From NCBI GenBank assembly GCA_015231955.1, contig JADGAN010000004.1, forward strand, positions 1 to 64,000: DNA of 64,000 nucleotides, written 5' to 3'. The DNA comes from Oligoflexia bacterium (GTDB taxonomy: Bacteria; Bdellovibrionota; Bacteriovoracia; Bacteriovoracales; Bacteriovoracaceae). The notes below the pieces were generated by a model. The model did not search any database. It worked only from the letters and a program-made list of their open reading frames with translations, and had not been told where the DNA came from. The stretch's first letter is position 1, and each line of letters begins with the position of its first letter. Below are positions 1 through 57,912 of the stretch, one piece after another. The position numbers and the translations under genes were made by a program.

Positions 1-2
1 GT

Positions 3-6979: not shown

Positions 6980-8959
<1,980 letters not shown>

Positions 8960-8976
<17 letters not shown>

Positions 8977-11351: not shown

Positions 11352-11476
11352 AAAAATAGTCTCCCAATTTTAAGTATTTCTGCGCTAAGGATAACAGCTG
11401 CTCTTTTACTAATTTTTTAATACTTTGACTAGGGACTAGAGTTGATTAGAGGAACTTACGGTATCGTTTAGCATTT

Positions 11477-11947: not shown

Positions 11948-12138
11948 AATATGGATCTCCTTTATGCGAACAATAATTGCGCTCTTGGGCCTCAACTTTA
12001 AAGTCAATTGCTTTAAATACAAAGAAAAATAGTGAGTAGTTAGTAAAGTGCTGTATTTGCATTGGTGGATCGTAGCACTTTAGATCTGAAGCGCCACCTC
12101 AGATAGGCAACTCTTTTCACACAACTCTTTTTGTAGCA

Positions 12139-12168
12139 TTGAAAGTATTAAAAAATTTAATTTATAAT
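12139..12168 (+). promoter_or_regulatory. Sigma-70-type promoter
   Basis: TTGAAA (12139-12144) and a perfect TATAAT (12163-12168) are 18 bases apart, 28 bases before the ATG at 12197. The spacer is extremely AT-rich. Confidence 0.55.
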
Positions 12169-12196
12169 TTGCCCATGGAATGGTACTGTCGGTGCC

Positions 12197-13594: not shown

Positions 13595-13626
13595 AAAATA
13601 TAAAAATTTTTTTTGGAGGGGAACTT

Positions 13627-15042: not shown

Positions 15043-15051
15043 CTATTACCG

Positions 15052-33980: not shown

Positions 33981-34995
33981 TCAGCTCAACAACTTTCGCG
34001 GAAAAAAGTTTATCTTTTAATTTTGAGATCACATCCTCTCTAATCTTTTTTCCTTGCTGGATATCCCCTGCAGGAAAATTCACAAAGGTGATTTTGGAAT
34101 CTTTAATCGCTTGTAAGGCCTCAACGTTCTCTTTGATGGTGAGTTCATTAGCTTTTTGAATATGTTTTTTGCAGATCTCTTCTACTATATCTTGATAATT
34201 TTTAGGGATCTTATTCCAAACCGAGTCATGCACCAAAAAGGCACCAATGGAGTAGGTGACTGGAAAATCGATTAAATATTTTACTTTGGTTTGCCACTGC
34301 ATCGCCAAGATCGCAAGCGGTGAAGCGTAGGCCGCATCGATAATTCCGGTGGAGAGAGAGGCAAGTACATCGGGCAGTGCCAGTGGCACAGAGACTAAAT
34401 TCATCGACTGAATCAGGGTGTTGGAGAGTAGATCACCATCCCACGACCAAATTTTTAGCCCCTTTAGTTCTTCAAAATTGCTGGCCTTCTTTGACGAGAT
34501 CAGATAGACCTGGCCCACCTCTAAAAATCCTAAGTTTTTAAACTTATTTTTTTTAAGGCCCTCATTAAAAATCGGAGAGAGTTTGGAGAGTGCATTCCAA
34601 GCACGATCGCGTTTTTCATAGAAGGTAAAGGGCACTTCCATAATACGCACGTCTCCACTAATATCGCCAAGTGTACGTCCGGTGAAAACACCGCCGCTCA
34701 TCTGTCCCATACGAATTTTTCTTAAGACCACTGGCTCATCACCGGAGACTGCACCAAAATACATTTTGAATTTTACTTCACCTTTAGTGGCAGTGGCGAC
34801 CTCTTCTGCCAAGGCCTCCAAAGTGTTGGCCCAAGTGGTTCCTTTGGGTGGTAACACACCAACTTTAAGAGTTACCTCTGCCAAAAGCGTTGGCGTCAAC
34901 AAGATGGTGGTCAACGCAAGCATAAGCACAAACATTGCTGAAAATAAAAAACTCTTTTGCATCTTAATCATCTTCATCCTCTTCATCGTCTTCAT
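33964..34995 (-). CDS. TRAP-type solute-binding protein (DctP/TatP family)
   Basis: The protein is 343 aa or slightly less. Several in-frame ATGs (34995, 34986, 34971, 34962) precede a signal peptide ending TLLAEVTLKVGV. The body matches the DctP family: LPPKGTTWANTLEALAEEV, YFGAVSGDEP, KIRMGQMSGGVFTG, LKIWSWDGD and NLVSVPLALPDVLASLSTG with IIDAAYASP. The substrate is unknown. It lies directly after the TatT lipoprotein, matching the Treponema TatT-TatP arrangement, in which the P component docks on trimeric TatT. No DctQ/DctM genes occur in the window. Confidence 0.85.
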   Translation of the reverse strand: MKTMKRMKMIKMQKSFLFSAMFVLMLALTTILLTPTLLAEVTLKVGVLPPKGTTWANTLEALAEEVATATKGEVKFKMYFGAVSGDEPVVLRKIRMGQMSGGVFTGRTLGDISGDVRIMEVPFTFYEKRDRAWNALSKLSPIFNEGLKKNKFKNLGFLEVGQVYLISSKKASNFEELKGLKIWSWDGDLLSNTLIQSMNLVSVPLALPDVLASLSTGIIDAAYASPLAILAMQWQTKVKYLIDFPVTYSIGAFLVHDSVWNKIPKNYQDIVEEICKKHIQKANELTIKENVEALQAIKDSKITFVNFPAGDIQQGKKIREDVISKLKDKLFSAKVVELIAKEI

Positions 34996-35005
34996 CCTTT
35001 ATGAT

Positions 35006-36001
35006 TTATTCAAAAATGGTTTTATCATACTGTTTTAATACATTGTAATGTTTCATCGCAAGGGCATTTAAGAGATTTTGATGAGGATCATAGCTACTGC
35101 TTGTGCTCTCCTCCCAGTAAGCGGTGATCCTCTGAATAGCACTTTTCAGCTCTGCCATCTGTTTTTGGAACAACTCCTTCTCCTCCAAAGGAATCAGCGC
35201 ATACTCGATCAGTGCAACTTGCAAAAAGAGGTTATCGCGATTTTTTTCAATCCCCTGCTGAAACAGTTGCAACCCTTTTTGTGGATTTCCTCCAAGCAGA
35301 GGAGGTCTACTCACCTCATAAGCGCCATTAAAGGCCATACAGCCGCCAAAAAAGTAGTTGGGTTCACGCAAGCAAACCCAATCAAAGAGCGACTTTACTA
35401 GGGGGAGTTGCCCCATAAGCCGTGGCCTCTCTTTTTGCAAATTAATTAGTCCCGCCCAAGCTTGGGCCAAAAAGAAGATAGCATCTAAATCACGACTATT
35501 TTCTCCATCTAAATTTTGATCTAAAAGCTTTGCTAGCTCTTCAGAGGAGGCAGCAAGCAACTGCTCATAACTCACACCTTGGAGTTTTAAAAAGCGTAAT
35601 CCATAGTTTTGTGCTCTGGTGTAAAAATCGATAGCACGCTTTTTATAATACTCTTCATCTTCACGCTTTCTGCTCTGCTTTTTAATGGCCAGTTTTACCT
35701 CTAAGAGTTCGCTTTCAGAGACTAAAACTGCATAGGAGGCGTACCCTTTCGTTAGCGATGCCAGTAAATTTTCTTCGGAAGGATTCACATAAAGGATTCC
35801 CTCTATAAATTTAAGATTAGGAAGAGCACTCTCGCGAAAGACCTCATAATTGCGCTCCGTCTCCATTTCTCGCTGCCCTTTTTGCAAAAGATCGCCGGCC
35901 ACGCTTGGTGCTAACCGTTCCATGGTACCGCAAGCAAAAAGGAGAGGTAAGGAGAGTGCCACTAACAAAATTTTTACCACTATTCTTGTTGTTGATTGCA
36001 T
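35006..36001 (-). CDS. TatT-like TRAP-associated lipoprotein
   Basis: The protein is 331 aa. The signal peptide has a lipobox LLFAC. The mature part is TPR-like helices: FIEGILYVNPSEENLLASLTKGYASYA, then ARNYG-type helices, and ACMAFNGAYEVSRPPLLGGNPQKGLQLF, which resembles the TRAP TatT component signature (a G-x-x-x-x-P-x-x-L-G-G-x-x-x-x-A segment). TatT forms a trimer with a ligand-conducting pore next to the TatP binding protein. Adjacent placement (10 bases from TatP) supports this. AAGG lies ten bases before the ATG. Confidence 0.75.
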   Translation of the reverse strand: MQSTTRIVVKILLVALSLPLLFACGTMERLAPSVAGDLLQKGQREMETERNYEVFRESALPNLKFIEGILYVNPSEENLLASLTKGYASYAVLVSESELLEVKLAIKKQSRKREDEEYYKKRAIDFYTRAQNYGLRFLKLQGVSYEQLLAASSEELAKLLDQNLDGENSRDLDAIFFLAQAWAGLINLQKERPRLMGQLPLVKSLFDWVCLREPNYFFGGCMAFNGAYEVSRPPLLGGNPQKGLQLFQQGIEKNRDNLFLQVALIEYALIPLEEKELFQKQMAELKSAIQRITAYWEESTSSSYDPHQNLLNALAMKHYNVLKQYDKTIFE

Positions 36002-43482: not shown

Positions 43483-44760
43483 ATGAAAAAAATGGCCCCA
43501 AAAACAGCGACCGCTAATAGCGAAGCACCCCTTGCGTATAAACTTCGTCCCAAGTGCAAAGAGGATTTTGTCGGATATTGCGAATTGACCAGCAAATACC
43601 CCGTGCTTTTGCAAAGACCACTTGCAAGCTTAGTGATCTGGGGGCCACCAGGATCGGGCAAAACCTCACTAGCATCACTGCTTGCAAAAGAGGCGCATCA
43701 AGAACTCTTTACCTTTAGTGCAGTCCTTGGCAGCGTTGGCGATTTAAGAAAACTCATGAGTGATGTGGTAAGCACACGTGACCTCTACGAGGGAAGAAAG
43801 GCGATTATTTTCATTGATGAAATTCACCGCTTCAATAAGGCGCAACAAGATGCCTTGTTGCCTGCAGTGGAGGCAGGAGATTTTACCTTAATTGGTGCGA
43901 CCACTGAAAATCCCCGCTATAGCGTTAATCCCGCTCTGCTTTCTCGACTGCATGTGATCGAGCTTGGAAAATTCTCCATGGAGGATCTTAGAAAAATATT
44001 AAATCGTGCCTTGGAGAAGCAGAGTGTAGGTATAGCGATGAGCGAAGAGGTGCTTTCACTTTTAAGTGAGTTTTCTGATGGCGATGCCAGAAAGGCCTTG
44101 AACCATTTAGAACTTTTACTTTCGCGTTCTCAAAATCAAAATCAAGAAGCTGTCAACTGGGATGCATTAAAGCGCCTTCTCTTTCAAAACAATCGCAACT
44201 ACGACCGCAAACAAAATCGCCACTACGATGTGATTTCTGCCTTTATCAAGAGCATGCGTGGGAGCGATCCCGACTCCGCCTTAATTTGGTTGGCAATCAT
44301 GCTTGATGGCGGAGAAGATCCTCTCTTTATTGCCAGGAGGTTGGTGATTTTTGCTTCCGAAGACATTGGGAATGCTGATCCCATGGGACTTCTGGTTGCC
44401 ACCAGTGCACTTACTGCGCTTCAAAATGTGGGGCTTCCAGAGGCGGCGATTAACCTGGCCCAAGCAGTAACCTATCTAGCATCAACAGTAAAGAGCAATG
44501 CTGCTTATGAAGGACTACGGAGGGCCCAAGAGGTGATCGCAAAGCATGCCACCATTGAGGTACCTGCACACTTAGTCTCCTCTGGAAACAGCAGTTATCA
44601 ATACCCTCACAACTTCAAAGGGCACTTTGTTCGTCAAAATTATTGTAATCTTAAACATCCGCCACTCTATCGTCCAACGACCATCGGTCGTGAAAAATTT
44701 TTTCAAGAGCGCTTAAAAGAGCTTTGGGGAGACCATAACCATGACCATGAGAAAAATTAA
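43483..44760 (+). CDS. rarA: Replication-associated recombination protein A (RarA/MgsA)
   Basis: ATG 43483 (16 bases after the previous stop) gives 425 aa; the reading from 43426 would add residues inside that gene. Motifs are Walker A GPPGSGKTSLAS, Walker B IFIDEIHRFNKAQQDALLP and sensor 1 TLIGATTENP, with the DGDARKALNHLE AAA sensor 2 region and a C-terminal MgsA domain (ISAFIKSMRGSDPDSALIWLA and ARRLVIFASEDIGNADP). RarA acts on single-strand gaps and stalled replication forks. Its 3' end overlaps the TPR gene by 20 bases. Confidence 0.95.
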   Translation: MKKMAPKTATANSEAPLAYKLRPKCKEDFVGYCELTSKYPVLLQRPLASLVIWGPPGSGKTSLASLLAKEAHQELFTFSAVLGSVGDLRKLMSDVVSTRDLYEGRKAIIFIDEIHRFNKAQQDALLPAVEAGDFTLIGATTENPRYSVNPALLSRLHVIELGKFSMEDLRKILNRALEKQSVGIAMSEEVLSLLSEFSDGDARKALNHLELLLSRSQNQNQEAVNWDALKRLLFQNNRNYDRKQNRHYDVISAFIKSMRGSDPDSALIWLAIMLDGGEDPLFIARRLVIFASEDIGNADPMGLLVATSALTALQNVGLPEAAINLAQAVTYLASTVKSNAAYEGLRRAQEVIAKHATIEVPAHLVSSGNSSYQYPHNFKGHFVRQNYCNLKHPPLYRPTTIGREKFFQERLKELWGDHNHDHEKN

Positions 44761-45568
44761 TTTTTATTTTATTACCCTGCTTGCCTTTACTTTTATCACT
44801 ATCACGCTTGCACCAGCTGCTGTAAAAAATCAACTCAGCAGCATGGAACTTGCCGATAACCTTTACAAAGAACGGAGCGATTTTACGAAGGCACGCAGCG
44901 CTTTGGAGCTCTATGAAGATCTCTATAAGGCCACTGCAGAAAAAGATCAAAAAAGTAGGCAATTGCTCTTAAGAAAACTCAGCATGGCCAATTACTTTGT
45001 TGGCCACCATTCGCCTAAAAATGATGGGGATGCTAATCAGTTAAAACGTAGAAAAGATCTCTTTAACCGCGGTATCGAATACGCCAATCGCTGCATCAGT
45101 GAAACCCAAGAGAGCAGTATCCTTGGTGAGTGCTACTTTTGGCTTGCTACCAACCAAGTATTACTGTCCCAAGACGAAGGAAACTTCTCCCTAGTTTTTT
45201 CCTTATCGTCAGTTATTAAAAATTTTGAAAAAGCACAAGAGCTCTCTCCCACTTTTGCCGGAAGTGGAGCACTTCGCATGCTAGGAATTCTTCATCAGAA
45301 GATGCCGGGAATTATTGGAGGGAGTAATAAGAAGGCGGAAGAGTATCTCTTAAAGGCCATCGCTACCTCACCCAAAGAGCCCTTAAACTATATGTTCCTT
45401 GGAAAATTTTATGCAGAAAGTGCCAGCACCCAAAGCAAAGTAAAGGCCTTAATCGATCAGTGGGAGCTGCAACAAGTAAAGAGCATTCCTGTTGAGCAGT
45501 ATGAATCGTTAGGAGCACTAAAAGATATTGAAATTTGGAAAAAAGAGGGACGCTGGCCGATTGATTAA
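44741..45568 (+). CDS. Exported TPR protein, unknown
   Basis: The protein is 275 aa. ATG 44741 has GGGGAG nine bases upstream and lies inside the 3' end of rarA. Signal peptide MRKINFYFITLLAFTFITIT, then helical repeats with TPR character (ALELYEDLYKATAEKDQKS, NKKAEEYLLKAIATSPKEPLNYMFLGKFYA). The G-G-x-x-K-K-A-E-x-x segment resembles those of TatT-like lipoproteins, but no lipobox is evident. It is the last gene of the ileS operon; there is no gene from 45569 to 45820. Confidence 0.6.
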   Translation: MTMRKINFYFITLLAFTFITITLAPAAVKNQLSSMELADNLYKERSDFTKARSALELYEDLYKATAEKDQKSRQLLLRKLSMANYFVGHHSPKNDGDANQLKRRKDLFNRGIEYANRCISETQESSILGECYFWLATNQVLLSQDEGNFSLVFSLSSVIKNFEKAQELSPTFAGSGALRMLGILHQKMPGIIGGSNKKAEEYLLKAIATSPKEPLNYMFLGKFYAESASTQSKVKALIDQWELQQVKSIPVEQYESLGALKDIEIWKKEGRWPID

Positions 45569-45820: not shown

Positions 45821-48800
45821 CTAAAGGGAAGAACAGTGTTCCATTTTCTGAATACTTTTATCTTGGCAGGAAAACTTTAATAGCAAGGAGGCATTATAAG
45901 TGTCGTGGTGAGCAAGTCGAATCAGCGCTAAGAGATACGATTTCATCGCTAAAAACTCTTCGCTATTGTCATTGCCGTTTTTATATTCGTTTAATACCAC
46001 TTTTTCCGCCAAGGCATACTCCTGCTGATCGAGTAGCTCTTCCACTTGTTTTAATCTTTGCTGGTGGTTGCTTAAGGCAGGAAGCTGGAAAGCAGCAGCT
46101 TCGCTCTCTTTGTTTAGTAGCAGTGGTTTTTTATTAGGGGTGATATAGGTGGAGATAAGAGGAACAAATTTTGCTTCTGCCTTTAAAGTGGCACAGGCGG
46201 CCTGCTCTTTTTGTAAGAGTGATAAAAAATTTTGGATATTGTCAGTGAGCTTTTGTGCAAGTCCTTTCCACTGGTTCATCTCTGGATGGTTTTTTGCTTG
46301 CTCTAGTTCATTTAAGGCCTCTTGGCGAAAGTTGCTTAAAGCACAAATGGCATCTGCACGAACTTCCAAAGAGGGGGAGTTAGAAAATTTAGTAATCACT
46401 TTAATTTTGTTGGCAATTTGATCTAAAGTGCCCTTGATGATCTCAATGATTGTCGGTGTGGTGGTGGTGGTTGGTATACTTTTTGTCCAAACGCCCCAAA
46501 CTGGATTTTCTTTGTTATAATCTTTATGAAAAAGGGTGCCCCAGAGGGGAGTTAGCGTGGAAGTAGGGATTAACTCCTGTTGGTGTTTTTTTAAAAAAGT
46601 ATCTACTTTAGGTTTTAAAGCATCACTAGTAGTGGTCACAACATAATAAAGATCATTTAACAAAAGGTAGCTTGCATAGTATTGTGGCGAATCTGGAGCA
46701 TAATTTTTCTTTTGGTTGTAGGTAGGAATGATCTCGGTCTCGATGATCACGGAGAGCAGATCCCATGCATCTCTTAGCAAGTTATTCCAGAAAAGAAGGC
46801 GTGCCAGCACGATTTTGTTATCAAGGATTTGCAGCTGAGCAGAATTTTGCTTTTGTAATTCCTTTAAAATTTTTAAAAATTGTTGTTTATTGCGATACTG
46901 CCCATAGGTTAATAAAAGATTGAATAACTCTTTATCTTTTTGTTCTGGAGTTAAAAGTAGTTGATTAGGATTTAACTCTATGGCCGATAAAATGCTAGCA
47001 GCAGCTTTGGAATAATCGCCTAGGTGTTGATAGATATTGCCTTTGCGCATTTTTAGCGAGAAGAGCATATCGTTTACTTCTTGTATCTCCTGTGCAGTTT
47101 TCTCCTCTTTGTTTTCAAAGATAAAAATTGCATTGTCTGCAAAATATTTTTCCATTGCTGCTTGTAGCTTCTCTATCTCGCTAGACCATTCGTAACTCAT
47201 GATTAAGTTATGAATGGCCTTAAGTTTCAGCAATGGATCAACACTACTTTCTAAGCTTTTTGCATACCAGGAGCGTGCCTCCTCTCCCTTCAAAGTAAAC
47301 GCGTACTGAAAAGCGCTCTCTTGTTTGGTAAGTAATATTTTTTCTTTAAATTTTTGATCTTTAAACTTGGAGGAGAGCTGGGACAACTCATCAACTAAGA
47401 TGTAAGTGTTTTTCCAGAAATTACGCTCTTTATAGTAAAACAAAACTTTCATTAACTTATTTTGCTGCTTTTGCGAATCGCCTTTGCTATTAAACAAATC
47501 GATAAGCGTGGTTTTAATTTCTTCATAATCGTTAGCGGCAGCACGTTTGCATAGGTGCTCTAAGAGCAATAAATCGGCAAGATCTCGCCCTTCTGCCTCG
47601 GGAAAATGGGTGATGTACCATTTAAGATGCTCAATGATCTTGGTGTGCTCAAATGGTAACTCGATTTTTTTTTCTTGCTCTTTACTTAAAATACTTAAAT
47701 TATCAGATTTTTTTCGCAAGATGTTTAAAACGCTATGAGCGGCATCCAGGCGATTTTCAAAAGACTCTTGCTGCTGAGGAGATAGTGCGGCCTTTTCATA
47801 GGATAGGATCGCCAAATCTTGCTCTCCCTTTTGCTCATACCTTTGGGCCCCATGATACCAAAGCAGTGCAACTTTAGTGTCACTTAATAGTTCGTTCCAT
47901 ACACTATAGAGCTTATCCACACTTGGCCAATGATCGTTGTTTTCCAATTTTTTTGCCTCTCGATGCATGGTAAGCGTGAGCTGAGTTAATTTCTTATAAA
48001 ATTCACTGGGATCTTCCAGTGTTTCACCTTTACAAACCAAGGGATAATTTTCACGCAGCTCTTTAGCAACTCGTTCTCGCCTTCCCATCCTTAGTTCATT
48101 ATCTAGCATTTCATATAAAATAGTGTAGGCCTTGATTTCACTATAGAGGATCGCTACGCACTTCGAGTTATCGATAAAGATTTTTTTAAACACCACACTC
48201 GATTCATCAAATTTGCCAATTTTTTTATAAATCCGTGCTAATTCCTCTAATACCTGATAGTAGCGATTATCACTATAATGAAAGATTTCTATCTCTTTAA
48301 TCGCCTCTAGTGGAGGCATCAGCTCCGCTAAAAAAAGTAGCATATCTCGCTCGGCTTCTTTGAGAATGCTCGAGGTTTTGCTCCCCTCCTCTTTTTGCTG
48401 CTTTTGATAGTGCAACAAAAGTCGCTCTAAATGCCTCAAGGCCTCCCAAGTTTTTTTTTCATTATAAAAACTCCAAGCGGCCTTATAAATTCCATACGCC
48501 GATTTTTCATCGCCACCAACTTTCACTAATTCTCTAAATTGTTCGATGGCCTTTTGATGCTCTCCCTTTTCAAAATAAAAATCTCCTAAAAGTTGATGAA
48601 CATCTTCTCGATACTGTCCTAAAGGGTAAAAATTGGAAAATTGTCGTAAGTAGGGTTCTGCTACTGCAACATCATTTTTTTCAATCAAGGAAGCAAGAAA
48701 TAAAAAATACCCCTCCTCCGAAATAAGCGGGCGTTTTTGCCTGATGGTGTTTTCCACCATTCCTCGCAACATTTGCGTGGCATTTGTCAGCGCTGCACTC

Positions 48801-49729
48801 CACTCTTTTTGATACTTCTCGGGATTTTCGATGCGATAAATACTGGCAAGATTCCACCACGCCTCTGCTATGAAAAATTTGCACTCACTATCACAAAGCT
48901 CGACAGGAACCTTTTTCGAGTTCTCAATGACACTCATCAATTCTGTTCTATTGGTATTAAAATCCCACTCTTTATTGTGATCGACCCATTGATGAAATTT
49001 TGCTTCTGAAGTGATTTTAAAAAGCATGAGTTGTAAATTATAGGGGATTTTATCCACATTTTTTAAAACTGCTCCTGCAATATTTTCCGCAAGCGTATAG
49101 TTGCCTTTTCGCATCTCTAAAAAGGCGGAGACAATTTCAATCTCACTTGCTAAATCGTAATCGTTATTACCAGCTTGCTTTATGTTCTGTATCAGTTGCT
49201 GCACCTCCTGCAACTTTCCTAGCGCCAAAAGACTCCACGACTCCCCAAGCTTAGAGAGCACATAAAAAATTGAGTCAATAGGAACCCCTTGGTAATTGGA
49301 GATCGATTGTTGATAATTTTTTTGCATATAATAGGAGCGGCCAAGAATCAGGTAAGCGAGTTCTCTCCAAAGCTTAAAGGTGGTTAAGTAGGCATAAGAT
49401 TCACGTACACCGCGATCAAAGCTTCCTTGATAAAGTAAACGCTCCCGCTGCCCTTCTAGTAGTAAAATTACTTCTGCATAATTTTCTTTCTCTAATTCAA
49501 TTTTTAGTCCTTCTAAAATTTTATAAACCGGATACTCTGGCCGATCACTTTTAGGCATCTCTTGTGGTAGCACAATTTTGCCACTACTTTTGAAATTTTT
49601 AATAATTTTCTCTAGTTCATCGACTGAGCGCAAATTATCAGTAGCAAAACTAGTCACGGCCCAGAGAGAGAAAACAAGATAACTAAAGGTAAAAATAAAA
49701 ATCAACCGTGACAGTCTATCATAAAACAT
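45821..49729 (-). CDS. Giant exported TPR-repeat protein of the motor-like locus
   Basis: ATG 49729 is preferred (1302 aa): AAGGA lies eight bases upstream, and it overlaps the GYF gene stop by 11 bases; ATG 49759 lies further inside that gene. A signal peptide or anchor (RLIFIFTFSYLVFSLWAVTS) is followed by many TPR-like helix pairs (for example YLILGRSYYMQKNYQQSISNYQ, QLLGDFYFEKGEHQKAIEQFRE, YEKAALSPQQQESF). It is probably a periplasmic scaffold. By analogy GltE- and GltI-like TPR proteins of the Agl-Glt machine are candidates, but I cannot assign orthology. It is transcribed divergently from the motor genes. Confidence 0.75.
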   Translation of the reverse strand: MFYDRLSRLIFIFTFSYLVFSLWAVTSFATDNLRSVDELEKIIKNFKSSGKIVLPQEMPKSDRPEYPVYKILEGLKIELEKENYAEVILLLEGQRERLLYQGSFDRGVRESYAYLTTFKLWRELAYLILGRSYYMQKNYQQSISNYQGVPIDSIFYVLSKLGESWSLLALGKLQEVQQLIQNIKQAGNNDYDLASEIEIVSAFLEMRKGNYTLAENIAGAVLKNVDKIPYNLQLMLFKITSEAKFHQWVDHNKEWDFNTNRTELMSVIENSKKVPVELCDSECKFFIAEAWWNLASIYRIENPEKYQKEWSAALTNATQMLRGMVENTIRQKRPLISEEGYFLFLASLIEKNDVAVAEPYLRQFSNFYPLGQYREDVHQLLGDFYFEKGEHQKAIEQFRELVKVGGDEKSAYGIYKAAWSFYNEKKTWEALRHLERLLLHYQKQQKEEGSKTSSILKEAERDMLLFLAELMPPLEAIKEIEIFHYSDNRYYQVLEELARIYKKIGKFDESSVVFKKIFIDNSKCVAILYSEIKAYTILYEMLDNELRMGRRERVAKELRENYPLVCKGETLEDPSEFYKKLTQLTLTMHREAKKLENNDHWPSVDKLYSVWNELLSDTKVALLWYHGAQRYEQKGEQDLAILSYEKAALSPQQQESFENRLDAAHSVLNILRKKSDNLSILSKEQEKKIELPFEHTKIIEHLKWYITHFPEAEGRDLADLLLLEHLCKRAAANDYEEIKTTLIDLFNSKGDSQKQQNKLMKVLFYYKERNFWKNTYILVDELSQLSSKFKDQKFKEKILLTKQESAFQYAFTLKGEEARSWYAKSLESSVDPLLKLKAIHNLIMSYEWSSEIEKLQAAMEKYFADNAIFIFENKEEKTAQEIQEVNDMLFSLKMRKGNIYQHLGDYSKAAASILSAIELNPNQLLLTPEQKDKELFNLLLTYGQYRNKQQFLKILKELQKQNSAQLQILDNKIVLARLLFWNNLLRDAWDLLSVIIETEIIPTYNQKKNYAPDSPQYYASYLLLNDLYYVVTTTSDALKPKVDTFLKKHQQELIPTSTLTPLWGTLFHKDYNKENPVWGVWTKSIPTTTTTPTIIEIIKGTLDQIANKIKVITKFSNSPSLEVRADAICALSNFRQEALNELEQAKNHPEMNQWKGLAQKLTDNIQNFLSLLQKEQAACATLKAEAKFVPLISTYITPNKKPLLLNKESEAAAFQLPALSNHQQRLKQVEELLDQQEYALAEKVVLNEYKNGNDNSEEFLAMKSYLLALIRLAHHDTYNASLLLKFSCQDKSIQKMEHCSSL

Positions 49730-50489
49730 GGGCGTTTTCCTTGAGCACAATTTTTTCAATCTGTTTTTTAGTTTCAGGATTCATGCGAATAAAATAAAGT
49801 TCAATTTTTATTAAAAAACTCTCTGTATCTAATTGACTTGATAGATTTGATTTGTCGATAATCGCGGCATGCAAAGTAAAAGCACGAACATTTCCATTAC
49901 TAAAAATCGTTAAGCTTACGCGATCTCCGACTTGCGGTTCTTTGATTTGTAATTCACTTTTCATCTCCATCTCAAGACAGGCCTTCTCTTTATTAAGGGA
50001 GATAACGGCAGCTTTAATCGCATACTCTGAATTATGAATGATCGCTTCAGCTTTAAAAATAACCATCTGATGAAGAGTGATTGCTGGGGAGGAGGCATTC
50101 TCCTCCTCATTGCCTAACAGCTGTAGTGTTTTTGGACTAAGAGAGATATTATTTTCTCCAGCAGCATCTCGGTTACCCTCTTCATCCTTTTCATAAATTC
50201 CTTTACTCAAATGCTTCTCCGTAGGGCAAATAGGTTTACTCGCCATCTCTGCTTCAAACTCTTTGTAACTATAAACCCTATTCCATCCCTCTCTTTTGTC
50301 ATCAGTACAGCAAATATAATCATCAAATTTGAGTGTTCCCTCTTTTAACATCTTAACAATTGTTCCAGTTTCATAAGGACCTTTCGCTGCTACACCCTCG
50401 CGATCAGGAAGATACCACTCTTTGCCATCACTATTCTCCTGCCTTCTCTTACTGTTACTATTACTATTGCTCTTATTTTTATTGAACAT
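49719..50489 (-). CDS. GYF_2-domain protein with PilZ-like C-terminus
   Basis: The protein is 256 aa. After a Ser/Asn-rich start, residues 25-85 match a GYF_2 domain (WYLPDREG, then KGPYETGTIVKMLKEGTLKFDDYI and DDKREGWNRV). GYF domains occur in AgmX/GltJ, where they contact partner proteins. Residues about 140-245 form an all-beta module that may be a divergent PilZ fold (c-di-GMP binding) without the RxxxR motif, so binding is uncertain. No signal peptide, so it is cytoplasmic. GGAG precedes the ATG. It is co-transcribed with the giant TPR gene. Confidence 0.7.
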   Translation of the reverse strand: MFNKNKSNSNSNSKRRQENSDGKEWYLPDREGVAAKGPYETGTIVKMLKEGTLKFDDYICCTDDKREGWNRVYSYKEFEAEMASKPICPTEKHLSKGIYEKDEEGNRDAAGENNISLSPKTLQLLGNEEENASSPAITLHQMVIFKAEAIIHNSEYAIKAAVISLNKEKACLEMEMKSELQIKEPQVGDRVSLTIFSNGNVRAFTLHAAIIDKSNLSSQLDTESFLIKIELYFIRMNPETKKQIEKIVLKENAHVL

Positions 50490-50626
50490 GAAATCTCCAT
50501 ATCATTTCATAGTGAAACCATCAACATTATAGATGTACAACTTTTCATCGGTTTTTTTTTAGCTTTTTATTAATGAAAGTTATTATGGACTCCGAAAGGA
50601 AAATGCCAATCGATGGAGAGCAATGT
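50490..50626. promoter_or_regulatory. Divergent intergenic region of the motor-like locus
   Basis: This is the only spacer between the two arms. A TATAAT-like element reading on the minus strand (rc of ATTATAG, 50526-50532) overlaps a TATAGA reading on the plus strand, so both arms may be driven from one short segment. No confident -35 is seen for either. The ATG candidates at 50573, 50585 and 50603 lack a good ribosome site, whereas GGAG eight bases before 50627 fixes the likely start there. Confidence 0.3.
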
Positions 50627-52186
50627 ATGAGCAAAAAAGTATTGCTAATAGAATCTGACTTAGGTCTTGCTGCTATATTGGATATTGTTATTCGCAAAAA
50701 ATTTGATGCTGAAGTTATCTGTAAAACATCAGCAACTGCTGCTGCCGAATTTCTCCAACGGCATCACGATTTCTCTTGCATCATTGTAGATGATGATGCC
50801 CCTAAAGGTGCTACTAATAAAATGATAAAAGCAGTTCAGCAACTAGACAGAAGTATCCCCGTGATTGCCCTGGTTAATCCGATTGCCACAGGATTTGATG
50901 GTAAATTTGTCTACGCTAAGGTCACCAAACCCGATGTCACTACGACAATTGAGCAAATTTTAAAAAATTTCTTAGATGAACATAACAAAGATGAGAACAG
51001 CATTATTGGATCGATCCTGGCACCTTTTTTCTTTATTCGTCTAGAATCTATCTATTACTTTAATCGTTTAGACGTCGATTTCTATATCAAACTCTCTGAA
51101 GACAAAATTTTAAAACTTTTTGAGGCCGGAAGTTTTTTTGGAAAAGAGGATTATGACAAGTATAATGGCAAGGGTGTTGAGGGGCTTTATGCTCTAAAAG
51201 ATGAGCTTCCCACTTTAATCGATCGCTTATTTCAAAATTATAAAGCGCTCTTCGATCTTAATTTCTACACTTGTGCCGATAACTTAGTGAATTTAATTAA
51301 TGCCCAAGAGGTGTACTCCGACAGCGAAACTGGGCAGATTATCGACAAAGTGGCAAAGTCGCTGCTTAAAGCAGAAGAGAATAGTCTTGGTTACGATGAA
51401 GGAGTTAGTGTTTGCAAAGAGACACTCTCTACTATTTCGAAAACTATTGGGAAATTTGGGATTACCCCCTCCACCCAAAATCTCACCAAGGCCACCGTGC
51501 TATTATCTCTTGCCTTTATTAAAAAGTCACCAATGCTGGGTGGCCTTTTAGAAAAGATGCAAGCAATTAGTGCAGAGACAGAAGACAGTTATCTTGTCGA
51601 TCACTCTTTGTTTCTAGCAAATTTAACTTGTGTGATCGCTGGAGTGATGGGTTGGAACTCCAACCTTACTTACTACAAACTCACACTTGCCTCATTTATT
51701 CATGATATGCCTTTGAAAAATCCTAAACTTGCCAAATTTCGCTCGCTGCAAGAGTTGATGTCAAAATGTGATATTTTTTCAGAAGAAGAGTTACAAGGGT
51801 ATATCAATCATCCCTATGAGGCAGCAAAAATGATAGAGAGTTTTCGGATGATTCCACCAGATATTGCTTCCATTGTACTTGAACATCACGAAAGACCCGA
51901 TGGTATGGGTTTTCCAAGAAAAATAAATTACAATTCCATTACTCCGCTAGGAAAACTTTTCATCGTCTCTCACGATATTGTAAGTTATATCTTTAACAAA
52001 GAAAAAAATCAAAGCGCCCTCTCCTCCAAGAACAAGGAGGAAAGGCCCGATAAACTTAATAGCAATTTAATCACTTTCTTAAATCAACACCGCATGCTCT
52101 ACCAAATGGGAGATTTCAAACATATCTTCGATGCAATTTGGAATAATTTAGTCAACACCTCTAATCCTAAGAGCAGCATCTTATAA
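50627..52186 (+). CDS. REC plus HD-GYP-like regulator of the motor-like locus
   Basis: The protein is 519 aa. Receiver-like domain 1-120 with acidic D55-D57 (IIVDDDAPKG) as potential phospho-acceptor. Middle domain about 135-210 containing FYIKLSEDKILKLFEAG and KYNGKGVEGLYALKDEL, like the paralogue at 23327. HD domain with DH (325-326), HD (359-360), HP (395-396) and HHERPDGMGFPRK (420-432). HD-GYP signature residues are partly altered (HDMPLKNP instead of HDIGK; GFP instead of GYP). A c-di-GMP link to motor control is plausible, not shown. It heads the plus-strand arm. Confidence 0.75.
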   Translation: MSKKVLLIESDLGLAAILDIVIRKKFDAEVICKTSATAAAEFLQRHHDFSCIIVDDDAPKGATNKMIKAVQQLDRSIPVIALVNPIATGFDGKFVYAKVTKPDVTTTIEQILKNFLDEHNKDENSIIGSILAPFFFIRLESIYYFNRLDVDFYIKLSEDKILKLFEAGSFFGKEDYDKYNGKGVEGLYALKDELPTLIDRLFQNYKALFDLNFYTCADNLVNLINAQEVYSDSETGQIIDKVAKSLLKAEENSLGYDEGVSVCKETLSTISKTIGKFGITPSTQNLTKATVLLSLAFIKKSPMLGGLLEKMQAISAETEDSYLVDHSLFLANLTCVIAGVMGWNSNLTYYKLTLASFIHDMPLKNPKLAKFRSLQELMSKCDIFSEEELQGYINHPYEAAKMIESFRMIPPDIASIVLEHHERPDGMGFPRKINYNSITPLGKLFIVSHDIVSYIFNKEKNQSALSSKNKEERPDKLNSNLITFLNQHRMLYQMGDFKHIFDAIWNNLVNTSNPKSSIL

Positions 52187-52199
52187 CAAGGAGACCCCT

Positions 52200-53939
52200 A
52201 TGAGTAATTTTCGTCTTAAAAGCATTTTAGCAGCACTCCTACTGGCAACCACTTCTTTGGCCATGGCCACGGAAGCCCCAAATGAGGGGGATTCCTCAGA
52301 GGCCCCTCTCAATTTTAATTTATCAGGAAATGGTAGTGAAGGTTTCTATTACGACAGTGAAAGACAAAAATATTTCTCCAATGAGAAAAGCATTTTCTCC
52401 ATTAAACCTATAGGACAACAAAAATATCTTGACCGCATTGATGTCAGCATTGATGGTGGTGAATTTGTTCCCTATCATGGCATTTTAGTTTTTGATAAAG
52501 AGGGCCCTCACCAAATCCGTTTTCGTGCTGTTGATCCAGTCTTAAACTGGAGCCCTATTCAAACATTTAGGATTTTTGTAGATAAAACTCCCCCAAAAGG
52601 TCAAGTGGTTTGGAAAGGTCCTACTTTTAAATCTCCAGAGGGCATCTTTGTCAATGCTTTAACTGAGTTAACGGTACTTTCTCAAGACAATCTCTCTGGA
52701 GTTTCTAAAATTTTTTGGAGCGACAAGAGTAAAAGCTCGATTTTTCCTGGGCAGCAAACCTTTTCCAAAGAAGGTTCTTATGAGTACACCTTTTATGGTG
52801 TGGATTATGTTGGAAACCAAGAACAACCTTATACCGTGAAATTTTTTGTCGATACCACTGAACCCAATACCGATGTTGCCTTAAATGGCCTCTCTTATAA
52901 GGCCAAAGATACCAAGGGAGTTTTTGTTAACCTAGGCACCAACTTGGAACTAAAATCACATGATCAACACTCTGGTATCCAGCGAATCGAATATCAAGTT
53001 AATGATGGTCCTGTTGCTATTTATGGCGGCCCCATCATTCTTTCAGGAAAAGAGACCAACATTCGCTATCGCGCTATTGATAATGTCGGTAACACTGAAA
53101 AATGGAATAGTGTAAAACTGATTTTAGATATTAAACCGCCACGTATCGATGTAGAGAAGAGAGGCAATGCCGTGACTCTTGGTGGAAAAATCTATGCTAA
53201 AAATGGTTTTAAACTTAATGTAGGTGTGAATGATGATGATAGTGGCATCAAAGAATATTTGGTATCTTATGACGGAATTAAATATGCCACCACAGAAACT
53301 AAAGATTTTACCTTTGATAAAAGCGGTGAATTTCAATTTAGCTTCAAGGCGGTCGATAACGTTGGTAACCTTGAAGAAAGTAATCCCTATATCATTGTGA
53401 TCGATAACACTGCTCCTGAAGTAAAGTTAAATTCTACTGAAAAATTGGTAGAACGCGATGGTGTTTTCCTCTCCGCTATTCCTAATAAAATTTATTTTGA
53501 TATCAAGGATGATGGCGTTGGGCCAGATAAAATTGAAATCAGTTATGACGGAGAACGCTTCTCTACTCTAACTTCACCCATTGAACTTGCAGAGTGGAAG
53601 AATAATCATCAAACTATTCACTATCGTGGCGTGGATCGTCTTGGAAACGTTGGACCCATTAAAAAAACAGAAATTTTAGTACGCACTCAAGGACCGGCCG
53701 TGGATCTTTTTGTGGAATCGGACAAACTGCCAAACGTTCCTCTCTCCACCATTCGTGAAAAATTCAATGCTGGCAAAAAAAGCAAAGATGAGAGTAACCT
53801 AAGCAGTAGCAGTAGTACAAAATCAAGTGAAGAGTCTGCAACCACTTCCAGTGAAGAAAAACCAAAAAAATCTAAAAAGAAGAAAAATAAAAGTGAAGAC
53901 AAGCGCAGCGAGAGTAATAAAGAAAAAGGACAGGAATGA
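52200..53939 (+). CDS. OmpL47/Ig-like repeat exported protein
   Basis: The protein is 579 aa. Signal peptide MSNFRLKSILAALLLATTSL, cleaved near AMA|TEA. About five tandem beta domains of roughly 95 aa each share an I-D-N/D-x-T/K-P-P-x-x-x opening, for example FVDKTPPKGQV, FVDTTEPNTDV, ILDIKPPRIDV and VIDNTAPEVKL. Each has a Y-R-A-V/I-D-N-V-G-N core, as in OmpL47-type/Big domains. The last 60 residues are Ser/Lys/Glu-rich (SSSSSTKSSEES..KSKKKKNKSED). It is probably an envelope or surface component, possibly the adhesive or peptidoglycan-linked part. AAGGAGACCCCT precedes the ATG. Confidence 0.75.
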   Translation: MSNFRLKSILAALLLATTSLAMATEAPNEGDSSEAPLNFNLSGNGSEGFYYDSERQKYFSNEKSIFSIKPIGQQKYLDRIDVSIDGGEFVPYHGILVFDKEGPHQIRFRAVDPVLNWSPIQTFRIFVDKTPPKGQVVWKGPTFKSPEGIFVNALTELTVLSQDNLSGVSKIFWSDKSKSSIFPGQQTFSKEGSYEYTFYGVDYVGNQEQPYTVKFFVDTTEPNTDVALNGLSYKAKDTKGVFVNLGTNLELKSHDQHSGIQRIEYQVNDGPVAIYGGPIILSGKETNIRYRAIDNVGNTEKWNSVKLILDIKPPRIDVEKRGNAVTLGGKIYAKNGFKLNVGVNDDDSGIKEYLVSYDGIKYATTETKDFTFDKSGEFQFSFKAVDNVGNLEESNPYIIVIDNTAPEVKLNSTEKLVERDGVFLSAIPNKIYFDIKDDGVGPDKIEISYDGERFSTLTSPIELAEWKNNHQTIHYRGVDRLGNVGPIKKTEILVRTQGPAVDLFVESDKLPNVPLSTIREKFNAGKKSKDESNLSSSSSTKSSEESATTSSEEKPKKSKKKKNKSEDKRSESNKEKGQE

Positions 53940-54256
53940 AACTTTTTCATCTCTTTACGTTTACACTGCTACTCTTATTGCTCATGAATCTTGGCATTGC
54001 CAAAGAGAAAATCACTAAAAGCGATAAAAGCGATGATAATAGCAGAGTAAACGTAAAGACTGTTATCAAGTACAAAAAGCACACCGAAGTGGATTTAAGT
54101 GGCACTATTGTCAAAGGGAAAGCACGAAACCCAGAGGTGTTCTATATTTTCCAGCGTAAAAGATCGGGTAGTCGCGCCTTTGTAAATACACCAAATAATC
54201 TTTCACACCACAAAGTGAAAACAAGTGAACTGGTAAAAGGAGGCATTGGCGAGTGA
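53936..54256 (+). CDS. Small secreted protein of the motor-like locus
   Basis: The protein is 106 aa. The ATG overlaps the preceding stop (ATGA). A signal peptide (LFHLFTFTLLLLLLMNLGIA) is followed by a short basic domain with VDLSGTIVKGKARNPEVFY and IFQRKR. I recall small exported proteins with a similar (D-L/F-x-G ... K-P-E/x ... R-K-R) pattern beside TolQ/TolR-like genes in delta-proteobacteria, but this is not checked. Its GTGA overlap with the next gene indicates coupled translation. Confidence 0.6.
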   Translation: MKLFHLFTFTLLLLLLMNLGIAKEKITKSDKSDDNSRVNVKTVIKYKKHTEVDLSGTIVKGKARNPEVFYIFQRKRSGSRAFVNTPNNLSHHKVKTSELVKGGIGE

Positions 54257-56130
54257 AGGATAATGCCATTTATCTCAAACACCCACACACCAGTGAAGAG
54301 CAATTACTCGATTTTTTTGATAATGAGGCCTTTATTGGATCGGCGCCAGCAGCGAGCATAAAACTCTCCGATGTGCAGTGTAGTGACATCCACGCCTACA
54401 TTGCAAAAACTACGACTAGCGACAGTTACTATCTTTTAGATCTTGGCAGTAAAAGTGGAACTAGCATCGAAGGGAAAAAATTAAAAGAGGGCACTCTTAA
54501 AATTGGCGAAGAGTTCGTGATTGGCAACTCTCACCTCCTGATCAAAAAAATTTCAGGAGAATCGTCTCAAAAGAAAAAAATGCTCGAATCGTTTTTGGAT
54601 CAGACCGCCTCGAACATCTCCATTGCCTCCTTTCCCCTCTCCCCAACTGCGACTACGGCCGCAGCTGCAGCTACACCGGCACTCTCAAAAGAGAGCAACA
54701 AAAAAAATGCCCTTAAAGCGCCAACACTAAAGCGACAGTTGCTACAAATCTCTCTCTATTGGGGAGAAAAACAGTTAGAACTTCGCACCTTTGCTCCTGG
54801 CAACACTATTACCATCGGCTCTAAAGCAAACGTCATCTTTAGCGTCACTTATCCCGGAAAGCACATCTATAAACTTGCCACTTACAAACAAGAGGGACTA
54901 ACCCTGCACATTCCTCCCAAGGCAAAAGGCATCCTCTGGAAAGAGGGAAAGGTAATGCTGATCGATGAACTAAGAAACCCGGCGCAAGAATCTACTTCCG
55001 TCGTCTTGCATCTAGGTGATCATGCTGATTTAAAAATTGGAGAGCTAGTACTCTCTTTTCAATTCATCACCCCCTCCCCTAAGTTGCCACGTTTTATTTT
55101 GCCTTCTATTGAAAAACGCTTGTTACAAATTTTAGGAGTAATGGTACTTCTCTATCTTCTGCTTCTACTCTTACTGCTCTTCTCTCCTAAAGAGGAAAAA
55201 ACAGCAGAGTCCACTCCCATTATCAAGAAGACAAAAATTGCCAAGCGCTTACAAAAATTTCTCTTTAAACCTGGAGTAGAATGGGGCAAAAGTGTGCAAA
55301 AAAGTGCTGTAGGAGAAATTTTAAGTAGCGAAGGTGGCCGTGCCAAGGGTGAAGAGGGAGCAGTCAAGGCCGCAAAAGATACACCGGCCCCCAGTAAAGA
55401 AAAAAACAAAGTAGAAAAAATCAATCTTGCACACAAAACAAAAGCAGAGCAAAGCAAAGAAAAAGACAGCGCCAAATTTCAAGAGCTAAATGCAGAGGCA
55501 CAAAAGCAACAAGAGGTGGATAAACTTTTTGCAAAAGATTTTGCCGTCGACACCAACTCCGCACTCTACAAAGAGCAGGGAGCAACGGGAAAAGGTGGTC
55601 GCGACCGCTCGGTCGAAGAGGGCAGCAATCTTGCTGCCATTAGCGGTGGTGTCTGGGCGCGCGGAAGTAGTGGCCTTGGAGCGGGAGGAGGCGGTGTAAG
55701 TGTCGGCGTAGGTACACTCAAGGGGCTGGCCACCGGTGGTGGCATGGGTGCAGACGATATGGGAACTGTTCCGACCAAAGGGCACTCCAATGTTACCATT
55801 GCCACAGAGGAAGAGGTCTTACTACTTGACGGTCTTGATCCCGATGTCATCGCCGCCATTATCAAACGCTATCTTCCCCAAATCCAACACTGTTATGAAT
55901 CACAATTGGTTCATCATCCTAACATTCAAGGAAAAGTTGTCGTGAAATTTAGCATCATTCATGATGGCAGTGTGGGCAAAGCAGCGATTGCTGAAAGCAC
56001 CCTAAAAGATCCACCGACTGAAAAGTGTATTATCGAAAAAATATTAAAGTGGAATTTCCCTAAACCCAAAGGCGGTGGAACAGTTGAAGTGAAATATCCA
56101 TTTTTACTGATGTCCACAAAGAGTAATTAA
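54253..56130 (+). CDS. FHA-TM-TonB/AgmX C-terminal protein, GltG-like
   Basis: The protein is 625 aa, starting at GTG 54253 with AAGGAGG upstream. Residues about 5-95 form an FHA domain (AFIGSAPAASIKLSD, DIHAYIAK, YLLDLGSKSGTSIEG). A second FHA-like beta region spans 170-275. One membrane helix lies at about 289-312. A Lys/Glu-rich, Gly-rich periplasmic stretch follows, then an AgmX/PglI-type C-terminal domain (525-620) with the paired Cys (C547 in IQHCYE and C592 in TEKCIIE), KVVVKFSI and WNFPKPKGGG. This domain order matches GltG of Myxococcus. It would transmit the force of the ExbB/D-like motor to outer-envelope parts. Confidence 0.85.
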   Translation: MKDNAIYLKHPHTSEEQLLDFFDNEAFIGSAPAASIKLSDVQCSDIHAYIAKTTTSDSYYLLDLGSKSGTSIEGKKLKEGTLKIGEEFVIGNSHLLIKKISGESSQKKKMLESFLDQTASNISIASFPLSPTATTAAAAATPALSKESNKKNALKAPTLKRQLLQISLYWGEKQLELRTFAPGNTITIGSKANVIFSVTYPGKHIYKLATYKQEGLTLHIPPKAKGILWKEGKVMLIDELRNPAQESTSVVLHLGDHADLKIGELVLSFQFITPSPKLPRFILPSIEKRLLQILGVMVLLYLLLLLLLLFSPKEEKTAESTPIIKKTKIAKRLQKFLFKPGVEWGKSVQKSAVGEILSSEGGRAKGEEGAVKAAKDTPAPSKEKNKVEKINLAHKTKAEQSKEKDSAKFQELNAEAQKQQEVDKLFAKDFAVDTNSALYKEQGATGKGGRDRSVEEGSNLAAISGGVWARGSSGLGAGGGGVSVGVGTLKGLATGGGMGADDMGTVPTKGHSNVTIATEEEVLLLDGLDPDVIAAIIKRYLPQIQHCYESQLVHHPNIQGKVVVKFSIIHDGSVGKAAIAESTLKDPPTEKCIIEKILKWNFPKPKGGGTVEVKYPFLLMSTKSN

Positions 56131-56164
56131 TAAAAGCTAAAAACTAAAATCGGAGGAAACGCAT

Positions 56165-56821
56165 ATGCAAGAGTTCATTAAATTTTTCAATGATGGTGGC
56201 TTTTTTATGTACCCTATTCTCATCCTTGCCATCATTGGCTCCATCATTATTGTAGAAAGAATCTATATGATTATCTTTGTCTACTATGCTAGTGGTGCTG
56301 TCTTAATGCAAAAAATTCAACGACTCATTCTCGACAACAATCTCGATGAAGCAGTCAAAGTTTGTAACTCCAAAAAGCATGCGGCCATTTATCAAATCTT
56401 CAAAGCGGCGCTAGTTACTGCTGATCGTCCCTATGAAGAGATCCAAGATCATGTGCAAGTGGCAAATCTCGCTCTCATTCCCAAACTCCAAGATCGCATG
56501 CCCTACCTCTCTACCATCGCCAATGTCGCTACCCTACTCGGTCTCCTTGGAACCATCGCTGGGCTGATTCAAACCTTTCAATCCATCGGTGCAGTAGAGG
56601 AGTCGCAAAAGCAGCTCATGCTCGCCGCGGGGATTTCTACGGCGATGAATACTACCGCCTTTGGATTAATCGTGGCGGTTCCCTGCTCCCTCGTTTACGG
56701 ATTTCTTTATAACAAAATTAACACCGTTATCGATGAAGTAGAACACTATTCAGGACGCTTGCTACTACTTCTACGCACTGGTGGACAATACTTCGATTAT
56801 GCTAAGAAAAAAGAGGAATAA
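56165..56821 (+). CDS. TolQ/ExbB/MotA-family channel protein, AglR-like
   Basis: The protein is 218 aa with three membrane helices (GGFFMYPILILAIIGSIIIVE near the N-terminus, then ATLLGLLGTIAGLIQTF, and the AFGLIVAVPCSLVYGF segment). The conserved TLLGLLGTIAG and VAVP motifs are those of proton-channel subunits. It forms a stator-type motor with the two ExbD-like proteins that follow. GGAGGAAACGCAT precedes the ATG. Confidence 0.9.
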   Translation: MQEFIKFFNDGGFFMYPILILAIIGSIIIVERIYMIIFVYYASGAVLMQKIQRLILDNNLDEAVKVCNSKKHAAIYQIFKAALVTADRPYEEIQDHVQVANLALIPKLQDRMPYLSTIANVATLLGLLGTIAGLIQTFQSIGAVEESQKQLMLAAGISTAMNTTAFGLIVAVPCSLVYGFLYNKINTVIDEVEHYSGRLLLLLRTGGQYFDYAKKKEE

Positions 56822-56827
56822 GCTTAG

Positions 56828-57388
56828 ATGAAGCGATTTAAACGAAAAGCACTCTTTCCCTTAACTGAAGTGAATGTGGTTTCGCTCATGGATATCATGA
56901 CCACCCTACTCTTCTTTCTAATCCTCATGGCCAGTTGGACTCACTTCTCCTCCATGAAAAGCAAGGCCGCCGCCAGTGCTACCAGCAATAATGAAAAACA
57001 TAAATTTTCTCTGGCGGTAGTGCTTGTGGATCGAAAAAATATTGAAGTCCATTTAGGAAAAATCGATAAATTAGAGGTTACAAATACAGAAGCTTTGGCC
57101 AACTACTTGGCCCAAAATTTTTCTGGAAATGCTAAGGCGGGATACAAGCAAAAAATCACGTCAGCGAGTACCTCCCAAAGTGAGGAGGAACAATGGAAAG
57201 AGATGTTAAAAAAACTTCATGCCAGCATCAAGGCGATCAAGTCCTCCTTCCCTACGGAGGATGGTGCAAGTTTAGTCATTGCCAATAACATCATCTATCA
57301 AGATATCATCTCCGCCATGGAAGTTATCTCTAGTGAAAAAACATTAGCACTCTTTCCCGATATCACCCTACAGGAGAGTTTGAAATGA
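56828..57388 (+). CDS. ExbD/TolR-family protein 1
   Basis: The protein is 186 aa. The N-terminal membrane helix carries the essential Asp, D22, in VNVVSLMDIMTTLLFFLIL. The periplasmic part (about 45-186) is the TolR-like domain (LAVVLVDRKNIEVHLG, SLVIANNIIYQDIISAME). It would pair with the ExbB-like protein as an AglQ/AglS-type partner. Six bases follow the exbB-like stop. Confidence 0.85.
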   Translation: MKRFKRKALFPLTEVNVVSLMDIMTTLLFFLILMASWTHFSSMKSKAAASATSNNEKHKFSLAVVLVDRKNIEVHLGKIDKLEVTNTEALANYLAQNFSGNAKAGYKQKITSASTSQSEEEQWKEMLKKLHASIKAIKSSFPTEDGASLVIANNIIYQDIISAMEVISSEKTLALFPDITLQESLK

Positions 57389-57912
57389 TCTCCTTAAGAA
57401 GAAAAAGTTCGGTTAAACTTGAACCACTTCCTCTCAATATCACCTCCCTCATGGATGTATTGACAGTGCTGCTCTTTTTTTTGATTCGTTTCTTTACCGT
57501 CAATCCCATGACCCTTTCCATCCCCAAAGATATTGCGCTCCCCAAGGCCAGTGTCAATCAGCAAATCATCGAGGCACTAGTGATCAGTCTTAGTAAGAAC
57601 GAACTACGTATTCAAGGCCATTTAGTGGTTACCCTTGAAGGCGGTAGCTTTAAAAAGAGCGATCTTGCCCCAAATGGAGTAATCATTCCCAAAGTGCAAA
57701 CTTATCTCGCTAGTGAGATAGACAAGCGAAAAAACATCCTAGAAGATAATGAGCACCCAACCAACCCAGCAATCAAAGAACTTCCTCCCGGGAAAGTGAT
57801 CATTCAAGTGGATAAAGATTTAACCTTCGACACCATCAAACGACTACTTCACACCGCCACCAAGGCCGGCCACGGCGACTTTCAATTCTTAGTCACCACC
57901 ATCCAACAGTAA
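57385..57912 (+). CDS. ExbD/TolR-family protein 2
   Basis: The protein is 175 aa. It overlaps the first exbD by four bases (ATGA). The membrane helix carries D24 in NITSLMDVLTVLLFFLI; the periplasmic domain ends KVIIQVDKDLTFDTIKRLLHTATKAG..., with a TolR-like strand-helix and GDFQFLVTTIQQ. Two TolR-like proteins per TolQ-like protein is the Agl motor arrangement (AglR, AglQ, AglS). Part of its 3' end is repeated at 58522. Confidence 0.85.
   Translation: MISLRRKSSVKLEPLPLNITSLMDVLTVLLFFLIRFFTVNPMTLSIPKDIALPKASVNQQIIEALVISLSKNELRIQGHLVVTLEGGSFKKSDLAPNGVIIPKVQTYLASEIDKRKNILEDNEHPTNPAIKELPPGKVIIQVDKDLTFDTIKRLLHTATKAGHGDFQFLVTTIQQ
57861..57912 (+). repeat. exbD-2 3' end, intact copy of direct repeat
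   Basis: The last codons and stop of the second exbD gene. They share a 37-base stretch with three mismatches with 58533-58569, and weaker similarity with gaps further upstream. Confidence 0.85.

Follow-up and report, generated by a model that had tools for sequence, protein, structure and literature searches.

A divergent Bdellovibrionota locus read as a distinct variant of the Agl-Glt/Nfs class of envelope motors

Introduction

In Myxococcus xanthus, AglR was found to bind GltG, and the transport of the Glt and Nfs complexes was found to be driven by the proton motive force (PMC3169522, PMC3858216). The Agl-Glt machine of this species is encoded by the clusters M1, G1 and G2, whereas the Nfs spore-coat machine is a paralogue set of Glt for another cargo that borrows the AglRQS motor (PMC3858216). 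A seven-gene core complex containing AglRQS, GltC, GltD, GltE and GltG in one cluster was described from Gammaproteobacteria and others (PMC3169522). Expanded Glt operons are known in Bdellovibrio bacteriovorus, where the PilZ gene Bd1482 precedes a gliding operon and gliding is under the control of a diguanylate cyclase whose effector was merely guessed (PMC3271064). The motor, the adhesins and the force path of Bdellovibrio gliding were named as a major open challenge in a 2026 review (PMC13104615).

Gene content and layout of the locus

The window is the whole stretch of 64,000 nucleotides that was analysed, and it corresponds to contig C59 of a 5.6-Mb Bdellovibrionota genome (G000) in 114 contigs. 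The coordinates and the gene order claimed in an earlier note on this DNA were found as stated there, with the open reading frames where they had been placed. Two genes run leftward, the GYF gene followed by the TPR gene, and seven genes run rightward from the REC-HD gene to the second ExbD gene, as follows.

45821-49759, minus strand: GltD-like periplasmic TPR protein, at most 1312 aa, N-terminal signal; TPR Pfam match 1.4e-12
49719-50489, minus strand: GYF-PilZ protein, 256 aa, cytoplasmic; PilZ and GYF_2 matches in relatives, and window model
50573-52186, plus strand: REC-HD-GYP-type regulator, 537 aa; HD_5 match 2.2e-9
52200-53939, plus strand: exported OmpL47-type repeat protein, 579 aa; NF047446 match 3.1e-60
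53936-54256, plus strand: GltF/CglF-like small exported protein, 106 aa; NF033764 match
54253-56130, plus strand: GltG-like transmitter, 625 aa, GTG start; NF033760, NF033768 and FHA matches
56165-56821, plus strand: AglR-type TolQ/ExbB subunit, 218 aa; MotA_ExbB match 3.2e-26, and tree
56828-57388, plus strand: first AglQ/S-type TolR/ExbD subunit, 186 aa; ExbD match 4.8e-9
57385-57912, plus strand: second AglQ/S-type TolR/ExbD subunit, 175 aa; ExbD match 7.5e-11

The TTG start of the TPR gene is uncertain, and an internal ATG is present near 49729. The four-base overlaps that had been reported for the rightward row were present at 53936, 54253 and 57385, the remaining gaps being 13, 34 and 6 nt, and the rightward genes presumably form one transcript. 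Promoter sites were no more numerous than in shuffles, and the terminator scan gave 11 against 8.0 (sd 2.9). The flanking AAA ATPase, TRAP T-component, AMP-binding enzyme and 3-beta-HSD were considered as Glt parts and rejected, none of them being similar to such parts. The TRAP-transporter solute-binding protein DctP was found together with a T-component (TAtT) at 33967-36001 of the window, and another TAtT-like protein (44741-45568) adjoins the motor locus.

Motor subunits

The presence of one TolQ/ExbB-like and two TolR/ExbD-like subunits, as proposed earlier, was borne out by the profile searches (MotA_ExbB 3.2e-26; ExbD 4.8e-9 and 7.5e-11). Both ExbD subunits were found to contain an SLMD motif and to keep the proton-path Asp, which lies in SLMDIMTTLLFF in the first subunit (56828-57388) and in SLMDVLTVLLFF in the second (57385-57912).

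A maximum-likelihood tree of ExbB proteins was built from 78 rows. The rows of TolQ, ExbB and other Ton/Tol proteins were split from the AglR and Glt-linked core-complex rows with support of 100/100, and the window row was placed on the AglR/core side, which is the grouping that the earlier note had named as a check. Eight of the 10 ExbB rows from OmpL47-type loci formed one clade (100/100), and the other two (G356 and G285) branched elsewhere in the AglR/core group; the inner order of the tree is unsure because of several long branches, namely ExbB and TolQ of E. coli and the row from contig C67 of the source genome. In other phyla, too, a protein with the GltG tail lies next to most of the closest ExbB homologues.

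An ordinary Tol-Pal or TonB/ExbBD energiser, serving envelope integrity or iron uptake, would likewise explain the matches to the TolQ/ExbB and TolR/ExbD profiles. It is considered highly improbable and was ruled out by the tree, which puts the subunit with AglR, and by the gene content, since TolB, Pal and a TonB-dependent receptor are absent from the locus. The subunits are therefore treated below as an AglRQS-type motor. A separate ExbB-ExbD-AgmX_C trio of the source genome (L039, G000:C48:115001-135000, at 14922-17257) adjoins genes whose products resemble subunits of the complex-I or hydrogenase type.

GltG-like transmitter and periplasmic proteins

The GltG-like protein was found to contain an FHA domain followed by a second FHA-like domain, one transmembrane helix near residues 285-308, a linker and an AgmX/TonB-like C-terminal domain. 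The order of FHA, transmembrane helix and AgmX-type C-terminus read from the sequence in the first place was thus recovered by the searches, with matches to FHA (1.8e-9), to the AgmX/PglI C-terminal model NF033768 (7.3e-31) and to the GltG model NF033760 (1e-62), the last at 212 bits and so far below the equivalog cut-off of 650 bits. A scan of the genome collection with the GltG sequence alone gave no match. The window GltG carries Ser in place of the phosphopeptide-binding Arg of the FHA domain. This Arg was also absent from most of the Bdellovibrionota GltG copies examined and was kept in G216 and G217; its loss is common in other Glt loci and was therefore rejected as a hallmark of the OmpL47-type set.

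The TPR protein, described earlier as a scaffold of 1.3 kaa, was confirmed as a TPR protein by Pfam (1.4e-12), and a profile comparison with a Myxococcota GltD gave a probability of 98.9% over 377 columns. A non-TPR motif, H.EaKKT...aD.(L/V)Y, was found to be common to the window-type TPR proteins and the Myxococcota GltD, and reads 'HKEAKKTDD..W.AVD.LY' (profile consensus) against 'HNEGKKTRNEETFRYADAVY'. Judged by its sequence, the TPR protein is GltD-like. The match between the window TPR protein and the TPR protein of contig C67 was weak, and these two are not clearly alike. The small protein had been described as tiny, secreted and basic; it is indeed a small exported protein, and its identity is corrected here to GltF/CglF-like, since the CglF model NF033764 was matched by all 12 of its 12 relatives (best 1.9e-8) and by the window copy at 0.002.

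OmpL47-like exported protein

The OmpL47-like protein was found to contain an ordinary signal peptide followed by five repeats and a basic disordered tail, and the five repeats that had been proposed correspond to five stretches matching NF047446 (3.1e-60). Its structural model was all-beta, and the best PDB matches were the adhesin domains of GhpA, the grappling-hook protein of Aureispira, and of SiiE of Salmonella; the global TM-scores were low because strings of repeats flex. The beta-barrel that the family name would imply was rejected, as the model consists of chained sandwiches with Ig-type matches. The protein is taken here as an adhesin-like string of Ig-like sandwiches, as predicted by the model. 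Two adjoining OmpL47-type repeat proteins were also observed at 2-3590 of another locus (L148, G008:C42), motor genes being absent nearby.

Salmonella has, in SiiAB, a proton channel that serves its giant adhesin SiiE. By analogy, the motor of the window might supply the energy for exporting or releasing the OmpL47-like protein rather than for moving cargo along the surface, and the repeats resemble the SiiE Ig domains both by sequence (1.2e-6) and in fold; in the main class of loci, moreover, the motor row begins with the adhesin-like gene, and this gene invariably accompanies the motor. This explanation is nevertheless quite unlikely, since type I secretion genes are absent from the locus, the signal peptide is of the ordinary kind, and GltD, GltF and GltG, which are parts of force-transmission machines, are kept. 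Against the preferred reading of a motor with an adhesin, it was counted that neither an outer-membrane anchor nor an export channel is encoded at the locus.

Conservation across Bdellovibrionota

Of the 369 Bdellovibrionota genomes, 13 were found to contain the OmpL47-like gene; they come from seven families (f1, f2, f3, f8, f16, f22 and f26), and the GYF-PilZ and TPR genes were adjacent in all 13. A homologue at E<1e-20 was found in none of 195 Myxococcota genomes, in a search run without a positive control. In ten genomes the row reads OmpL47, CglF, GltG, AglR, AglQ/S, AglQ/S, and most of them have the divergent GYF-TPR pair beside it. In G142 the pair is retained at a distance from the motor genes, and in G321 it lies on a different contig; the contig ends in G017 and G011 fit the standard layout. 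In three genomes (G356, G285 and G290) the locus was rearranged: one row consists of GYF, TPR, CglF and GltG, the opposite strand carries OmpL47, and ExbB and ExbD adjoin OmpL47. In the loci of this rearranged class (L161, L185 and L160), GltG was observed without its N-terminal FHA domain. The full set of eight genes was present in 11 of the 13 genomes, the other two, G304 and G290, being cut by contig ends (in G304 after the start of GltG). Relatives hence keep the TPR, GYF and OmpL47-like genes together with those of the motor, usually in the same divergent arrangement, which was the second check named for this locus.

At E<1e-30, the GYF-PilZ protein was found in 11 of the 13 OmpL47 genomes against none of the 356 others (next best 3.9e-19), with a profile that was built from seven of the 13. 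When these seven genomes were left out, the counts were four of six against none of 356 (p 2e-8), and such p values overstate the case because genomes are not independent observations.

GYF-PilZ protein and REC-HD-GYP regulator

The product of the first leftward gene had been called a GYF_2 protein. The window copy itself gave no Pfam match, and its PilZ half had been missed; the GYF part of the assignment holds, as GYF_2 was matched by six of seven relatives (best 7.6e-6) and a GYF domain is present in the window model. PilZ was likewise matched by six of the seven relatives (best 6.3e-14). The AlphaFold2 model of the window protein, made from 13 aligned sequences with a mean pLDDT of 74, matched PilZ structures (prob 1.00), and the GYF domain of GIGYF2 appeared at rank 49. 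The protein is accordingly predicted by the model to fold as PilZ plus GYF, with the second half as the PilZ domain.

Both c-di-GMP motifs of PilZ, RxxxR and [DN]xSxxG, were found to be kept in nine of the 13 GYF-PilZ orthologues, RxxxR alone was kept in G356, and both were lost in the window copy, G011 and G290. A REC-HD-GYP gene in the row was seen only in the window and in G011, where one contig ends inside the gene and another begins inside it, and the PilZ motifs are lost in both; yet G290, where the motifs are also lost, has no REC-HD gene in the locus. A single common ancestor may lie behind the loss of the PilZ motifs and the presence of REC-HD-GYP in the window and G011. The copies without motifs that have REC-HD-GYP in the row lie at 49719-50489 of the window and at 2464-3111 of L183. 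As to the regulator, which had been named REC-HD-GYP-like, the HD-GYP part stands, with an HD_5 match (2.2e-9) and with HD, HH and GYP-like GFP motifs, and the match to REC was weak (E 0.13).

As a general marker of Glt loci the GYF-PilZ gene was rejected, since most of the other GYF-PilZ genes of the phylum lie away from Glt genes. Three of 20 sampled were near Glt genes (G323, G212 and G223), and G036 and G037 were added from the surveyed Glt loci; the presence of PilZ beside Glt loci in these five genomes and in B. bacteriovorus indicates that the link between PilZ and Glt recurs. The Glt loci that the GYF-PilZ gene adjoins in these five genomes (L253, L254, L260, L050 and L273) are of the canonical, GltC-containing type, and in G323 the GYF-PilZ gene and the end of GltG share a single base.

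Outer-membrane parts and other Glt loci

Among 32 further Glt loci of Bdellovibrionota, GltC was present in 29, GltA/B in 25 and the OmpL47-like gene in none; counting was per locus, six of the loci had served to train the profiles, and some contigs end within loci. None of the 13 loci of the OmpL47 genomes contained GltA/B, and GltC was found neither in the window nor in the ten loci of its class; two GltC flags at loci of OmpL47 genomes fell on TPR proteins of 1.45 kaa. Among the window proteins scanned, no match was found for GltE or for GltH, GltI, GltJ and GltK.

Elsewhere in the genome, GltC was present in 12 of the 13 OmpL47 genomes. A second Glt locus of the source genome (L038, G000:C67:4001-24000, at 5051-15016) was found to contain an OMP, a GltC-like protein (NF033756, 2.6e-25), a small protein, AglRQS, two TPR proteins and GltG. 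The outer-membrane parts could therefore be borrowed, and the locus would then be a plain duplicate of a gliding machine that takes its GltA/B/C parts from the genome's other Glt locus, a source which the C67 locus and the GltC of 12 of the 13 carriers would offer. That explanation is judged unlikely, since the OmpL47-like and GYF-PilZ proteins are specific to the OmpL47-type machine and kept across seven families, since the AglR of this machine forms its own clade (eight of 10 members), and since the paralogous clusters of M. xanthus do not replace each other in motility (PMC3169522). Because GltC is encoded elsewhere in all but one of these genomes, the OmpL47-type set is an additional, specialised machine and not a degraded sole copy.

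Proposed mechanism

The product of the locus is probably a transport motor of the Agl-Glt/Nfs class that spans the envelope, is driven by protons and has output and control parts of its own. The parts recognised by sequence are the AglRQS-type motor, GltG, the GltD-like TPR protein, GltF/CglF, the OmpL47/Ig string replacing GltA/B and GltC at the locus, and GYF-PilZ; the cargo that is moved, the gating by a second messenger and a function in gliding or particle transport would follow from these parts. Proton flow through AglR-AglQ/S would move GltG, whose periplasmic AgmX/TonB-like domain would relay the force by way of GltD and GltF to the OmpL47-like protein. The latter would hold on to a substrate, a surface polymer or an adjacent cell and be carried along the cell. 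GYF-PilZ may couple or uncouple the motor in response to a cyclic dinucleotide, in the manner of the PilZ proteins that act on flagellar stators. Where the PilZ binding motifs are lost, in the window and its closest relative, the REC-HD-GYP protein of the operon would probably supply the signal input.

A further-reaching reading is offered tentatively, namely that the loci form a separate Bdellovibrionota class of Agl-Glt-type motors in which a dedicated Ig-string adhesin is carried over the surface, the motor-bound GYF-PilZ protein acts as a clutch switched by a cyclic dinucleotide, and the receptor role has passed to REC-HD-GYP in one lineage. The locus names a compact set that joins a motor to candidates for an adhesin and for a cyclic-dinucleotide receptor, and it offers a concrete means of testing how Agl-Glt-type motors are controlled and what they grip. 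It also shows that the outer-membrane module of Agl-Glt is replaceable, which would be expected of a general platform for surface transport (PMC3858216).

Comparison with known systems

Like the Agl-Glt machine of M. xanthus, the locus contains an AglRQS-type motor, a GltG with FHA and AgmX/TonB-like domains, a GltD-like TPR protein and GltF/CglF; unlike it, the locus is without GltA, B, C, E, H, I, J and K and adds the OmpL47-type exported repeat protein, GYF-PilZ and, in the window, REC-HD-GYP. The likeness to Nfs lies in an AglRQS-type drive and a paralogous set for another cargo (PMC3858216), whereas the locus comes with a motor of its own and differs in its outer parts. With the seven-gene core complex (PMC3169522) it shares AglRQS, GltD and GltG in one cluster, the GltE and GltC of the core being set against GltF, the OmpL47-like protein and GYF-PilZ in the window set. 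The expanded Glt operons of B. bacteriovorus (PMC3271064) are from the same phylum and have a PilZ gene beside a gliding operon, and an OmpL47-like partner is not reported there.

GltE and GltC were not found at the locus, and the set is therefore not called the gliding machine itself. The description of the partners as unfamiliar is narrowed, as the small protein is GltF/CglF-like, the TPR protein is GltD-like and the GYF protein carries PilZ; it still applies to the OmpL47-like and GYF-PilZ proteins, which are not standard Glt parts. These two are kept with an AglR-type motor where GltA/B is absent, and the locus is read here, in agreement with the suggestion of a distinct variant, as such a variant of the Agl-Glt/Nfs class. 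The PilZ proteins YcgR and MotI/DgrA are brakes or clutches of flagellar stators and act on stators of the MotA type. They are without a GYF domain, unlike the protein of the window; like them, the latter is a PilZ protein of matching fold that is linked to an ion-driven motor, and the parallel would be a functional one.
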